NCBI RefSeq assembly: GCF_024349785.1
Contig: NZ_AP018819.1
Location: forward strand, 1-64,000
Length of the DNA stretch: 64,000 bases
Direction of reading: 5' to 3'
Origin: Sphingomonas bisphenolicum
GTDB taxonomy: Bacteria; Pseudomonadota; Alphaproteobacteria; Sphingomonadales; Sphingomonadaceae
A program made the translations under genes and the position numbers. Shown piece by piece: positions 16,534 to 62,364 of this stretch. Positions within the stretch are counted from its first letter, which is position 1. The number at the start of each line of letters is the position of its first letter. Under the pieces are notes generated by a model. It was not told where the DNA came from. It ran no database searches and saw nothing but the letters and a program-made list of their open reading frames with translations.

Positions 16534-17823
16534 TCAGTTTTTGTCCCAGACCAGCGGAAGCCCCTTGAGAACCGTCGTCGCCACGGAAGGCATGTATTCC
16601 AGCTTGAAACCATCAGCGAGACGCATGTTGGGAATACGGCGCATCAGTTCTTCGTAGGCCGCTTTTGCTTCGATACGGGACAGGTACTGTCCTGCGCAGA
16701 CGTGACGACCGAAGCCGAAAGAGACCATTTCCTTGATATTGTCGCGGTTCAGGCGAAACGTCTCAGGTTCGGGGAATACATCGGGGTCAAGATTTGCAGC
16801 GGTGAGATCGAGGTAGACGATCGATCCGGATTCGATTTTCTGGCCGCATAGTTCTACATCCGACAGCGTTCGCCGGAACAGCCCGTCGACCGGACAGCGA
16901 CGGCGCAGCGTTTCGGAAATCGCCGCGGGGATCAGCGACGGATCCTCGGTAAGAGTGTCCTTGAGGTCCGGCGTGGTCAGCACGAAATAGGTGAGGTGCG
17001 CGATCAGCGTTGCCGTGGTGTCATGACCAGCCGCCCCGAATTCCAGTGCGTTGCAAACATTGGCGCTGATCGTGATCGTGCGTGAGCCGTCCGGTTCGCG
17101 CAGCTGCAACAGGTTTGACAGCATGTTGTTGCCGGGATTGCGATCAAGGTTCTCGACGACTTCGCGCAGGTAGTCGTTCGCCTCCGCCAGGCCTTCCCAG
17201 TTCTGCCGCAGTACCTCTTCCGGCATCGGCACGAAGAATCTTGCGTCGGCGCGCTCCGGTACCTTAGGGGTGAACAGCTGGAAGAAGCAGTTGGACCAGC
17301 GATGATAATCTTCCGCCCGTTCCTTGGGGATCCCGAGCAGATCGACGATCAAGTAGAGCGCAAGTTTGTAGCTGAAATCGTGGAGGAGATCGCATTCGCC
17401 CTTGTCGATGAAGGTATCGATAAGTTCGTTGGCGATCCGGCGAACGACCTCGTCCTTACCCACCAGCCGACCGGGGAGGAGGGCTTGCTGGACGGGAACC
17501 CTGAGCTTGGTGTGCTCCGGCGGGTCCATCGAGGGCAGATGCACGTCGGTGTAAAGGTCCGGCACGCGCGGCGCGATATCATCGGGCGGGGGGAGCAGGC
17601 CAAACGCGACAGAAGAAAAGACCTGCGGAGTGAACAAGGCCGAGCGCACATCCTTGTGCTTGCTGACGATCCACAAATTCAGCGGCTTATAGAAGTGCAG
17701 CGGATAGTCCCTAAGGGCGCGGGCTGCGTATTTTTCGCGGTTGCAGGCATATTCGGGCGAAAAGATGTCGAGGTCTGGAAAGACCGGCAGTGTCTGAGGG
17801 TTCATGTTCGGATTCCCGCTCAT
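16534..17823 (-). CDS. bisdB: Cytochrome P450, likely bisphenol A hydroxylase (BisdB-like)
   Basis: A 429-residue soluble bacterial P450. Seen directly: I-helix AAGHDTTATL (near residue 255), ExxR as ETLR, and the heme loop SFGFGRHVCAG with the Cys ligand (near 378). It follows a 2Fe-2S ferredoxin gene with a 56-base gap, the bisdA-bisdB arrangement of bisphenol-degrading sphingomonads, where the pair hydroxylates bisphenol A. IS6100 flanks on both sides also fit that locus as I recall it. Substrate is inferred, not proven; another hydrophobic aromatic is possible. An in-frame ATG at 17805 (MNPQTL) is an alternative start. Confidence 0.72.
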   Translation of the reverse strand: MSGNPNMNPQTLPVFPDLDIFSPEYACNREKYAARALRDYPLHFYKPLNLWIVSKHKDVRSALFTPQVFSSVAFGLLPPPDDIAPRVPDLYTDVHLPSMDPPEHTKLRVPVQQALLPGRLVGKDEVVRRIANELIDTFIDKGECDLLHDFSYKLALYLIVDLLGIPKERAEDYHRWSNCFFQLFTPKVPERADARFFVPMPEEVLRQNWEGLAEANDYLREVVENLDRNPGNNMLSNLLQLREPDGSRTITISANVCNALEFGAAGHDTTATLIAHLTYFVLTTPDLKDTLTEDPSLIPAAISETLRRRCPVDGLFRRTLSDVELCGQKIESGSIVYLDLTAANLDPDVFPEPETFRLNRDNIKEMVSFGFGRHVCAGQYLSRIEAKAAYEELMRRIPNMRLADGFKLEYMPSVATTVLKGLPLVWDKN

Positions 17824-17879
17824 TTTCGAATTGGGAAGGAAGGACGGCGTCGGCGCGCGTGCGCAGACAGCCTAGGCGC

Positions 17880-18197
17880 TCAGGAGTCCGGCGGGATCGT
17901 GAGCTTAAGGCCATCCAGTTCGGCCGTGACCGGTATTTGGCAGGAGAGCCGCGACCGTCCGGGGGTCGAGACCAGGCCGGAAAGCAGCATCTCCTCGTCG
18001 GAGGAGACCGGCGGCAGGGTCCCGGCGGGAGCAGCGTCGATGTAGACGTGGCAGGTCGCGCAGGAGCAGCATCCGCCGCACATCGCCTCGACGCCGTCGA
18101 TATTGGCGTCGCGAAGGGCTTCCATCAGGAACCCGGAGGCTGCGACGTCGAGTTCGCGTATCTCCCCATCGCGGGTAGTCACTTGGATATGAGGCAT
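17880..18197 (-). CDS. bisdA: 2Fe-2S ferredoxin, electron donor to the P450 (BisdA-like)
   Basis: A 105-residue adrenodoxin/putidaredoxin-type ferredoxin. The cluster ligands are C-x5-C-x2-C in CGGCCSCATC plus a fourth Cys in SRLSCQIP. Extra cysteines lie inside the loop. It is transcribed first, before the P450, and would pass electrons from a reductase to it. No ferredoxin reductase is in the window, so one must be supplied from elsewhere. A GGGAG site precedes the ATG. Confidence 0.8.
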   Translation of the reverse strand: MPHIQVTTRDGEIRELDVAASGFLMEALRDANIDGVEAMCGGCCSCATCHVYIDAAPAGTLPPVSSDEEMLLSGLVSTPGRSRLSCQIPVTAELDGLKLTIPPDS

Positions 18198-18328
18198 TTT
18201 CTTCCAACTCCCGTCAGGCTCGCTTGGCTGGTGTAGGCATTGGCAAACCGAAGATCCGACGCCTCGTCGCCCGCTTGGTCGCGTTCTGTTCGACCGAATC
18301 GTGCGGCGTCAGAGCGCTTGCTATGCTA

Positions 18329-18348
18329 TATTGATCCCTTTATCAATA
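18329..18348 (-). promoter_or_regulatory. Palindrome upstream of the ferredoxin-P450 genes
   Basis: TATTGATCCCTTTATCAATA has perfect 7-bp arms and a 6-bp spacer, 131 bases before the ferredoxin start. On the minus strand it contains a TTGATA box that could serve as a -35 element. The rest of 18198-18489 holds no gene that I can support. Confidence 0.4.
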
Positions 18349-60175: not shown

Positions 60176-61357
60176 TTATATCGTCTCCAAAGGTAGGCCG
60201 ACATAATTTTCGGCCAACGATCGCTGCGCTGTTATCGAGCCGCGGATGTAATCCAGCTCCGCCATCTGGATGCGACGATCGAACCCATCCATGTTGGGAA
60301 AGCGGTGCGTGATAGACGTAAACCACCACGAAAAGCGCTCCGCCTTCCAGACCCTCGACAGTGCGCGTTCAGAGTAGCTGTCGATGCCTGCGGAAGAATG
60401 GTCGCGATAAAATTCGCGCAGGGCTTGACTAAGCATGATCACATCCGACGCTGCCAGATTTAAGCCCTTGGCGCCGGTGGGAGGCACGATATGCGCTGCA
60501 TCGCCCGCCAGAAACAAACGGCCCCAACGCATCGGCTCGGATACAAAGGAGCGCAGCGGCGCGATGCTTTTTTCGAATGATGGACCTCGCGTCACTTTGG
60601 TGGCAACATCTCGTCCGAGCCGTAGGCACGCTTCATCCCAGAACCGCTCATCGGGCCAATCCTCTACCCGGTCGTTCAGCGAACATTGGATATAATAACG
60701 GCTACGTGTGGCCGAGCGCATGGAGGCGAGTGCAAAACCACGCTCATGGTTGGCATAAATCAGCTCATGTCCGGCAGGCGGTACGTCCGCCAGAATTCCC
60801 AGCCACCCAAAGGGATAAACGCGCTCAAAGGTCTTAAGCACGTTGTTGGGAATTGCCATCCGACTAGGGCCGTGAAAACCATCGCACCCCGCCACAAAAT
60901 CGCAATCGAGCCTATGCTCAGTTCCATTCTTTTTCCAAGTCAGGAAGGGCCGTTCGCTATCGACATCATGCAACATGGTCTCATCCGCATCCCAGATCAC
61001 ATGCACTCCGCGTGGCTCGGCCGCGTCGAACAGATCCCGCATTACCTCCTGTTGTCCGTAGACGGTTACGGTGGAGCCACCGGTCAAATTCGCCAAATCG
61101 ATATGAATGATTTGACCGTCCAATGACAGATTGGTCCCGCTATGAACTAAGCCGTCCTGGTCCAGTCGAGACGACAATTTGAGGCGACGCATCAAGTCCA
61201 CGGTCACCTGCTCCAGCACGCCGGCGCGAACGCGCCCTTCCACATAATGGCGATCACGCCGCTCGAGGACTATCGCTTCAATGTTTTCAGCGGCAAGCAG
61301 ATGTGCAAGGAGCATGCCGGCCGGACCGGCGCCAATGATTGCGACTTGGGTTCGCAT
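60176..61357 (-). CDS. pobA: p-Hydroxybenzoate 3-monooxygenase
   Basis: A 393-residue FAD enzyme, matching PobA in length (about 394). FAD motif [13 protein letters not shown] (residues 9-21), [19 protein letters not shown], the DG motif CDGFHGPSR, and [21 protein letters not shown]. It converts 4-hydroxybenzoate to protocatechuate with NADPH and oxygen. 4-Hydroxybenzoate is an intermediate of bisphenol A breakdown in sphingomonads, linking it with the P450 locus. Divergent AraC-type regulator next to it. Confidence 0.93.
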
Positions 61358-61453
61358 CTAATCCTCTTATTGGTACGGCGGGCTCGCATGGCCACCCCAC
61401 GCCCCAAATTAGCTGGCAATACGCTACGCACCATGTCACGGCCGATAAAAAGA

Positions 61454-61482
61454 TTGGACGATTCAACGGCAAAAATTATAGT
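61454..61482 (+). promoter_or_regulatory. Promoter of the pobR-like gene
   Basis: TTGGAC (61454-61459), 17-base spacer, TATAGT (61477-61482). The preferred ATG is only six bases after the -10 box, suggesting a leaderless message. Confidence 0.6.
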
Positions 61483-61488
61483 CGGACC

Positions 61489-62364
61489 ATGACCGCACGG
61501 CAGCAGATCCCAACCTTTTACCTCTATGGGGAGCCACATAGACTCGTCGAAGATTGCTTTACACATGTCGAGTCGTTAGACGATCGATCCCGGCCAAGTG
61601 AGTGGACGATCAAGCCACATGCTCACGCCGAGCTTTGCCATATTTTCCTGATCTGGGCCGGTGGAGGGAGTATGCGTGCCGATGGCCAGGTGCTGCGTTT
61701 TATAGCGCCATCCCTTCTGGTCGTACCGGCGACGGTGGTGCATGGCTTTTCCTGGGATGAGGATTCATCGGGAACGGTCGTCACGATGGCGACGCGATAC
61801 ATTAGCGACCTCGCGCGCCATGATCACGCGCTTGCACGGATATTTGACGCCGCAAGAGCGCTAACGTTGTCGCATTTCGAAAAGGAGACAGCTGAGCGTC
61901 TTGTGCAGGAACTTATGCGCGAACTGGCATGGTCGGCACCGGGCCACCGGGCAGCCGTCGATGCAACTCTTCTCTCGCTTCTCGTCGTTGTTCTGCGCAA
62001 CGCTACGCTAGACGACAGGCCGATTAGAAGACCAGGCTATTATGCCGGAATCGTCGCGCGTCTTAGGGAGAGGATCGAGCACAGGTTCCGGGAACGAGAG
62101 CCCGTCTCTGTCTACGCCGAAACGCTGGGGGTGAGCGAAACGACCCTACGCCTGGCCTGCTCGAAAGTTGCCGGCATGTCCCCGACCCAAGTGCTTAATC
62201 AGCGCGCTCTGCTCGAAGCACGGCGCTCGCTACTTTATACAAATCTAACGGTCGCTGAAGTCGGCTACTCGCTCGGGTTTCCGGACCCGGCCTATTTTTC
62301 CCGGTTCTTTAGCCGCCATGTGGGGCTGTCTCCAACGGACTTCCGTAGCTCTCGTTCGTCATAG
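61489..62364 (+). CDS. pobR: AraC-family regulator of pobA (PobR-like)
   Basis: A 291-residue protein with an N-terminal cupin-type sensing domain (PHAHAELCHIFLIWAGGGSMRADGQVL) and a C-terminal AraC DNA-binding domain (EPVSVYAETLGVSETTLRLACSKVAG and LTVAEVGYSLGFPDPAYFSRFF). Divergent from pobA, the usual place for the 4-hydroxybenzoate-responsive activator PobR. Start MTARQQIPTFYLYGE fits the family; the longer frame overlaps pobA. Confidence 0.85.
   Translation: MTARQQIPTFYLYGEPHRLVEDCFTHVESLDDRSRPSEWTIKPHAHAELCHIFLIWAGGGSMRADGQVLRFIAPSLLVVPATVVHGFSWDEDSSGTVVTMATRYISDLARHDHALARIFDAARALTLSHFEKETAERLVQELMRELAWSAPGHRAAVDATLLSLLVVVLRNATLDDRPIRRPGYYAGIVARLRERIEHRFREREPVSVYAETLGVSETTLRLACSKVAGMSPTQVLNQRALLEARRSLLYTNLTVAEVGYSLGFPDPAYFSRFFSRHVGLSPTDFRSSRSS

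Follow-up and report, generated by a model that had tools for sequence, protein, structure and literature searches.

Two gene blocks on one plasmid

The window analyzed here (bases 1 to 64,000 of contig NZ_AP018819.1 of Sphingomonas bisphenolicum, which we call C3 and which has 80,312 bases in all) carries the ferredoxin-cytochrome P450 pair bisdAB and, further along, pobA with its regulators; a catabolic operon follows at C3:64772-75557, past the window end. Taken together, these genes make it quite likely that the window represents most of an 80,312-base IncP-like plasmid with an almost complete pathway from bisphenol A (BPA) to protocatechuate, laid out in two blocks. Block 1 is bisdAB, enclosed by IS6100 copies; block 2 opens with pobA and the two regulators and continues beyond the end of the window. 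The genes are as follows:

16534-17823, minus strand: bisdB, the cytochrome P450 starting BPA breakdown (identity to three plasmid bisdB copies; published knockouts of close relatives)
17880-18197, minus strand: bisdA, 2Fe-2S ferredoxin, predicted electron donor of the P450 (Fer2; 0 to 1 codon differences to the three plasmids)
60176-61357, minus strand: pobA, 4-hydroxybenzoate 3-monooxygenase (TIGR02360, 659.6 bits against a cut-off of 538.7)
61672-62364, plus strand: AraC-family regulator beside pobA (HTH_18; open frame 61339-62364, start taken from the annotation of the near-identical plasmid pSYA3-2)
62564-63211, minus strand: TetR-family regulator between pobA and the catabolic operon (TetR_N, TetR_C_33; open frame 62564-63379)
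C3:64772-66208: lignostilbene dioxygenase (LSD), a carotenoid oxygenase (RPE65; homologue of a YC-AE1 gene)
C3:66619-68013: aldehyde dehydrogenase (ALDH) (Aldedh; homologue of a YC-AE1 gene)
C3:68056-68736: NTF2-fold protein (SnoaL_2; homologue of a YC-AE1 gene)
From there up to C3:75557: thioesterase (4HBT), beta-keto acid cleavage enzyme (BKACE), UPF0261 kinase, the three subunits of a biotin-dependent carboxylase (biotin carrier, Biotin_lipoyl; biotin carboxylase; carboxyltransferase, PYC_OADA) and HAD phosphatase (HAD-IIA)

An earlier note on the window had read bisdAB and pobA as the two ends of a BPA route and had described the middle steps as missing or elsewhere. That reading of the DNA as a BPA locus is supported and was, if anything, understated: on the same contig, candidates for the middle steps start 772 bases beyond where the window ends, and the gap was an edge effect. 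The two ends are in place. The ferredoxin-P450 pair lies in bisdA-bisdB order between two IS6100 copies and has the expected motifs, PobA passes the curated cut-off of TIGR02360, and the regulator beside it is of the AraC type.

Within the block-2 operon, which runs in the order given from LSD to HAD phosphatase, the genes from ALDH to HAD are separated by gaps of 39 and 33 bases and then overlap, and a gap of 407 bases separates LSD from ALDH. The order of pobA, the AraC-type and the TetR-type regulator ahead of the operon is the same on C3, pSYA3-2, the YC-JY1 plasmid and a contig of YL23, and the TetR-family protein may control the operon. A short open frame between LSD and ALDH (C3:66244-66607) looks by eye like the C-terminal end of a TonB-dependent receptor; it had no Pfam match, and the stretch is absent from YC-AE1.

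BisdAB and the first step

The P450 matched the Pfam family p450 and has the motifs AGHDT, ETLR and FGFGRHVCAG, and the ferredoxin matched Fer2 and has cysteines at positions 40, 46, 49 and 86. A tblastn search with the P450 matched 1,278 of 72,556 plasmid records, of which four were at least 95% identical and the other 1,274 less than 60%. The three listed of those four are pSYA3-2 of Sphingobium yanoikuyae A3 (99.8%), plasmid 1 of Pseudomonas putida YC-AE1 (98.4%) and plasmid 2 of S. yanoikuyae YC-JY1 (97.9%), all from reported BPA degraders. Identity to the bisdB products of these three plasmids was 97.9 to 99.8%, and the next relatives of the P450 were unnamed and 54 to 60% identical (word-filtered protein search, 7,995 candidates scored). 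By sequence, the P450 and ferredoxin are BisdB and BisdA. Two metagenome P450s, P0123 and P0127, are 60% and 55% identical to BisdB; their longest contigs are equal in length (49,488 bases), and the two may share one contig.

Close relatives have been studied by others; statements with a PMC number, here and below, refer to excerpts of the papers concerned. S. yanoikuyae A3 was isolated on BPA (PMC8407694). Knockout of bisdB in YC-JY1 and in YC-AE1 abolished BPA degradation, and Escherichia coli carrying bisdAB gained it, such that BPA conversion by BisdAB is demonstrated for enzymes about 98% identical to the window's (PMC7278973, PMC9733184). We considered that the P450 might act on another substrate in this host and that its similarity to BisdB might mislead, given that it differs at 9 of 429 residues from the YC-JY1 enzyme tested by knockout, and that at five of these sites the window residue occurs in none or one of nine distant relatives. 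However, the window enzyme differs by 9 and 7 residues from the YC-JY1 and YC-AE1 enzymes, and these distances fit the published identities of those enzymes to BisdB of strain AO1 (97.9% and 98.3%; PMC7278973, PMC9733184). The window enzyme is therefore probably of the AO1 type, and we regard a different substrate as very improbable. The same ferredoxin-P450 pair is present in Sphingomonas bisphenolicum AO1, Sphingobium YC-JY1 and P. putida YC-AE1, flanked by IS6100 on the sphingomonad plasmids. The AO1 P450 itself has reportedly been purified as a BPA enzyme, to judge by the title of a paper in a reference list.

A proposed route from BPA to protocatechuate

The excerpts on the published BisdAB systems establish the first step alone; the difference here is that candidates for the remaining route lie on the same plasmid. 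In the route that we propose, BisdAB would oxidize and rearrange BPA to 1,2-bis(4-hydroxyphenyl)-2-propanol, and the NTF2-fold protein would dehydrate this alcohol to 4,4'-dihydroxy-alpha-methylstilbene, as in the first half-reaction of LdpA. LSD would split the stilbene into 4-hydroxybenzaldehyde and 4-hydroxyacetophenone, and ALDH would oxidize the former to 4-hydroxybenzoate. On the ketone arm, the UPF0261 kinase would phosphorylate the phenol of 4-hydroxyacetophenone, the three-subunit biotin enzyme would carboxylate the methyl group of the phosphorylated compound, the HAD enzyme would remove the phosphate, and BKACE would cleave the product with acetyl-CoA to 4-hydroxybenzoyl-CoA, from which the thioesterase would release 4-hydroxybenzoate. 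PobA would unite both arms by converting 4-hydroxybenzoate to protocatechuate, with the ferredoxin reductase and ring cleavage presumably supplied by the host. All steps after BisdAB are assigned by homology and gene order. In keeping with the route, YC-JY1 reportedly uses 4-hydroxybenzaldehyde as well as 4-hydroxyacetophenone (data not shown in that paper).

We lean toward the view that this plasmid family encodes on its own a pathway from BPA to protocatechuate, in which parts taken from lignin-dimer breakdown follow a single P450; that the ketone half would run through phosphorylation, carboxylation and acetyl-CoA cleavage and not through hydroquinone; that this logic has been assembled twice, in sphingomonads and in YC-AE1; and that the P450 may still be changing under selection. 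The gene set offers one candidate for each step after the P450 on a single plasmid, and a reason for pobA being plasmid-borne. A 2019 paper had described the enzymes after the P450 as unknown and routed 4-hydroxyacetophenone to hydroquinone, unlike the ketone route suggested here. Our searches of open-access literature turned up no description of the complete BPA route, although papers outside that set could hold one.

The stilbene and aldehyde arm

The LSD belongs to the RPE65 family, and its best matches among solved structures were lignostilbene dioxygenases; it scored below two NCBIfam equivalog cut-offs (550 against 800 bits and 533 against 650 bits). This candidate would cleave 4,4'-dihydroxy-alpha-methylstilbene. 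The NTF2-fold protein, whose one family match was SnoaL_2, is rare. A word-based protein search returned itself and one 55% relative (2 of 1,334 candidates), and a search of 396 Sphingomonadales genomes, which was more sensitive here, found it in 15, namely its own, YL23 and 13 with relatives at 38 to 43% identity. The 20-kb stretches around all 13 distant relatives held LSD and ALDH homologues in seven cases, the carboxylase-HAD set in four and neither in two; in three of these stretches (L040 to L042) the LSD match was partial at the stretch end, and L041 and L042 gave the same ALDH and NTF2 match figures and are not independent. In contrast, LSD and NTF2 homologues occurred in none of the 75 carboxyltransferase loci described below. 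The NTF2 relatives at L040 to L052 are longer (about 270 residues), by eye with two tandem SnoaL domains, and the plasmid form has a shortened second half.

An LdpA-like role is proposed for the NTF2 protein because dehydration is the step that the BPA alcohol requires. LdpA, of the NTF2 family, first dehydrates its substrate to a quinone methide, giving a stilbene that a dioxygenase then cleaves (PMC12997858). The LdpA/PcfL and LSD route of beta-1 and beta-5 lignin dimers is thus similar in that an NTF2-fold enzyme yields a stilbene and a dioxygenase cleaves it to aldehydes (PMC12997858). It differs in that BPA needs no loss of formaldehyde, and the plasmid NTF2 protein is likened to LdpA by fold family. 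For the ALDH, the large contig C2 of the genome (955,822 bases) offers a parallel: a second pobA (62%) at 853140 lies about 3 kb from an ALDH 67% identical to the plasmid enzyme (C2:848879-854306), which supports 4-hydroxybenzaldehyde as the ALDH substrate. Given this second copy, the plasmid pobA may be a booster and not essential.

The ketone arm

The three-subunit biotin carboxylase and the HAD phosphatase of the Hpe, Acv and MarK pathway are both present in block 2. We take VceA of SYK-6 to be a BKACE-type enzyme. In Rhodococcus rhodochrous GD02, a kinase, the biotin carboxylase HpeCBA and the phosphatase HpeD act successively on 4-hydroxyacetophenone, with 4-hydroxybenzoate proposed to arise by a final elimination; the SYK-6 route finishes with VceA and VceB (PMC9618137). 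Novosphingobium aromaticivorans has a single-component kinase, MarK (PMC13101465). The plasmid UPF0261 protein aligned over residues 24 to 424 of 430 with PDB 9mpy, labeled 'UPF0261 domain-containing protein' (E 1e-172), which we infer to be MarK. A two-component kinase of the HpeHI type was not found in the cluster, and PPDK_N in the genome itself gave two matches in one 928-residue frame of C1. The plasmid set resembles the Hpe (R. rhodochrous GD02), Acv (SYK-6) and MarK (N. aromaticivorans) systems, in which a kinase, a three-subunit biotin carboxylase and a HAD phosphatase act on 4-hydroxyacetophenone and acetovanillone (PMC9618137, PMC13101465). It differs in having a single UPF0261 protein instead of HpeHI, in having BKACE and a thioesterase instead of HpeE and HpeF, and in being coupled to stilbene cleavage and BPA.

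When genome contigs were searched with an alignment of the carboxyltransferase, 359 relatives were confirmed. Among the 80 best loci, which were kept, five were identical to the query, and the other 75 were counted. UPF0261 immediately preceded the gene in 58 of the 69 loci with enough sequence upstream, and HAD immediately followed it in 67 of the 74 with enough sequence downstream. BKACE homologues (71 to 86%) occurred in 6 of the 75 loci and thioesterase homologues in 7. Both stood behind HAD in five loci (L068, L114 and L081 to L083), and L074 has BKACE behind HAD with a weaker thioesterase homologue on the other strand. Since L081 to L083 differ by 0 to 1 positions in 21,422 bases and count as one sequence, BKACE is found in four distinct sequences. 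These three loci form a second operon in a Sphingomonas metagenome-assembled genome, Aurantiacibacter xanthus and YL23, in which the carboxyltransferase is at 73%, the phosphatase is followed by thioesterase and BKACE, and further P450 and ferredoxin genes lie close by.

Weighing the pathway against its alternatives

Several observations weigh against the proposed pathway. For the NTF2 protein, a single-sequence search of the PDB gave no match up to E 1; its profile found polyketide cyclase and ketosteroid isomerase folds and no protein labeled LdpA, with no LdpA sequence compared directly; and an AlphaFold model from two sequences was poor (mean pLDDT 57.5). UPF0261 is absent from the place upstream of the carboxyltransferase in 11 of the 69 loci. 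The genome of S. bisphenolicum has five FMO-like matches, two of them in Baeyer-Villiger-type genes on C1 (659 and 673 residues, with N-terminal extensions), which leave room for the hydroquinone route. E. coli with bisdAB alone is reported to yield both 4-hydroxybenzaldehyde and 4-hydroxyacetophenone, so dehydration and cleavage may not strictly need plasmid enzymes. Finally, neither bisdB nor bisdAB was found in five drafts that hold block 2 or part of it (contigs of at least 3 kb searched). An assembly gap is likely there, though not proven, given that bisdAB occupies a 2,003-base stretch between IS6100 copies, that contigs under 3 kb lay outside the search and that a P450 closely resembling that of AO1 is described in the YL23 paper. 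The longest contig in the 98% database cluster of BisdB has 2,440 bases.

These points bear on two other readings. In the first, block 2 is a lignin stilbene and acetophenone pathway merely co-located with bisdAB, its real substrates being lignin dimers and any role in BPA breakdown arising by promiscuity. This would suit the formation of both monoaromatic products by E. coli with bisdAB alone and the presence of LSD and ALDH beside distant NTF2 relatives in 7 of 13 genomes, and lignin compounds are the substrates of enzymes related to the dioxygenase, to the carboxylase set and to the NTF2 fold (PMC9618137, PMC12997858). However, block 2 is 99.7 to 100% identical per gene in the BPA degraders A3, YC-JY1 and YL23, occurs in part in BiD32 and is found in a species named bisphenolivorans; P. 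putida YC-AE1 has just LSD-ALDH-NTF2 of block 2, joined to bisdAB; and no demethylase is among the block-2 families. We regard this reading as unlikely.

In the second reading, the plasmid supplies only the 4-hydroxybenzaldehyde arm of BPA breakdown; 4-hydroxyacetophenone would pass through a Baeyer-Villiger reaction to 4-hydroxyphenyl acetate and hydroquinone, and the carboxylase operon would serve lignin ketones. Both PMC6366072 and PMC9733184 depict the hydroquinone route, and the two long monooxygenases on C1 could be read in its favor. For these, however, a steroid monooxygenase was the first solved match and no NCBIfam cut-off was reached, with the presence of a solved 4-hydroxyacetophenone monooxygenase in the library unchecked. 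No break separates the carboxylase operon from NTF2 and ALDH; the linkage recurs in four drafts and in two plasmids, where every gene is at least 99.7% identical even counting the two single-base gaps in the YC-JY1 ALDH; and YC-AE1 has its own, different version of this operon. We consider this division of the arms quite unlikely and favor the carboxylating ketone arm of the plasmid pathway.

Relatives carrying the gene set

pSYA3-2 and the YC-JY1 plasmid (unnamed2) share with the window the backbone (96 to 100% by stretch), the bisdAB cassette and the block from pobA to HAD (99.6 to 100% by stretch). pSYA3-2 differs in being without most of 48185-59869 and in having an amidohydrolase and a 4-oxalomesaconate tautomerase gene. 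Near the start of the YC-JY1 record NZ_CP047221.1, the ALDH gene is without two single bases relative to the window's plasmid copy and no gene is listed; this could be a broken gene or a sequencing error.

The five identical carboxyltransferase loci are those of S. bisphenolivorans YL23, Croceicoccus bisphenolivorans H4, A. xanthus, the Sphingomonas metagenome-assembled genome and S. indicum BiD32. All ten block-2 genes are present in the first four, and the 5.6-kb BiD32 contig holds a partial kinase gene and the next four genes. The four full-block drafts are identical to one another over at least 13.3 kb and differ by one NTF2 codon from the block-2 genes of C3. Such identity across genera means either that transfer was recent or that some of the drafts are cross-contaminated. 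BPA degradation has been reported for YL23 and BiD32, H4 is linked to BPA by species name only, and our literature search found no BPA report for A. xanthus or the Sphingomonas metagenome-assembled genome. The gene set could serve as markers for tracking the trait, its carriers so far being BPA degraders by report or by name and these last two genomes.

In P. putida YC-AE1, the carotenoid oxygenase (LSD), ALDH and NTF2-family genes lie directly beside bisdAB, and the C3 genes each differ from their counterparts there by one residue. The YC-AE1 copy continues into partial IS6100 sequence and was therefore probably derived from an IS6100-flanked form. About 60 kb away (NZ_CP047312.1 206723-215313, locus L133), the same plasmid holds an acyl-CoA (acetoacetate) ligase, UPF0261, biotin carrier, carboxylase, a carboxyltransferase 60% identical to ours, HAD and an amidohydrolase. 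The YC-AE1 authors reported that 4-hydroxyacetophenone was fully used in 24 h (data not shown) and drew hydroquinone as an intermediate (PMC9733184).

Sequence change in BisdB

All nine codon differences between bisdB of the window and of YC-JY1 alter the residue, as do all seven relative to YC-AE1. Across eleven other genes compared with YC-JY1, seven codon differences were silent and five were altering (5 of 12); the ALDH was excluded for the two gaps in the YC-JY1 copy. The contrast of 9/9 with 5/12 gave a Fisher p of 0.007, and the density of differences p 0.0002; taken alone, 9/9 gave p 0.076 under equal substitution rates and 0.02 counting transitions only. At positions 165, 211, 257, 310 and 311, the window residue occurs in none or one of nine distant relatives (positions 257 and 310 are invariant across the nine), which argues that the window/A3 type is the changed one there. 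These patterns are suggestive only of positive selection on BisdB, possibly ongoing.

IS6100 copies around bisdAB

The elements that flank the 2,003-base unique bisdAB stretch are as follows:

15207-15610, minus strand: IS6100 piece of 404 bases, abutting the left copy; it repeats the right copy's first 404 bases exactly and in direct orientation, at a distance of 3,283 bases
15611-16486, plus strand: left IS6100 copy, 876 bp, with a 4-base deletion that breaks the transposase frame (alignment of the copies)
18490-19369, minus strand: right IS6100 copy, intact, 880 bp, inverted relative to the left copy

A reading as an IS6100 composite transposon was dropped because of the frameshifted left transposase and the absence of an 8-bp target duplication, none having been seen at the two flanking copies. 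The cassette is inverted relative to the backbone in YC-JY1, as expected from recombination between the two inverted IS6100 copies. We predict that recombination between the 404-base piece and the right copy would remove bisdAB. A spontaneous AO1 mutant without bisdAB has been mentioned (PMC7278973), and loss through this direct repeat could explain it.

Plasmid backbone and remaining genes

The backbone genes in the window are as follows:

1790-13753, plus strand: trb operon for mating-pair formation, trbB through a transglycosylase gene (99.97% identity to annotated pSYA3-2; trbB and trbE by Pfam)
27475-30614, plus strand: kleE, trfB-related (korA-like), parA, parB and kfrC-like maintenance genes (99.95% identity to annotated pSYA3-2; parA by Pfam)
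32508-43484, plus strand: traJ, traI relaxase (32911-35229), coupling protein (35251-37143), traF, topoisomerase and an ArdC/primase-like gene (Pfam for four)

An IncP-1 gene set is present, with a MOBP TraI, TraJ, the Trb transfer genes and KorA, KfrC, KleE and ParAB. No TrfA replication protein is named in the pSYA3-2 annotation, and no TrfA profile search was made. A 20-kb backbone stretch aligned over about 9% of its length with records such as pAKD4, which we take to be IncP-1, at 73% nucleotide identity. The plasmid looks transmissible, having an IncP-like backbone with conjugation genes; this is partly supported, and transfer is predicted from these genes. The conjugative vehicle that the earlier note had envisaged thus holds as far as the relaxase, coupling protein and trb genes go, but MOB-suite classed both sister plasmids (pSYA3-2 and that of YC-JY1) as mobilizable. 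The 20-kb stretch is 99.4% shared with plasmids of S. fuliginis ATCC 27551, Sphingobium YC-XJ3, S. baderi and Sphingopyxis DBS4, and these four are absent from the three records with the NTF2 gene and the two with a 99% carboxyltransferase. Because the backbone occurs without these genes, the vehicle appears to be a general sphingomonad plasmid with BPA breakdown as one cargo.

The stretch at 48185-59869, mostly absent from pSYA3-2, is rich in insertion sequences, with IS6100 copies, an IS6-family element (52408-53289) and an IS21 pair. It also holds genes for a TonB-dependent receptor (49781-52351), a C-terminal piece of a GMC oxidoreductase (55747-56331) and an integrase-like protein (58135-59313).

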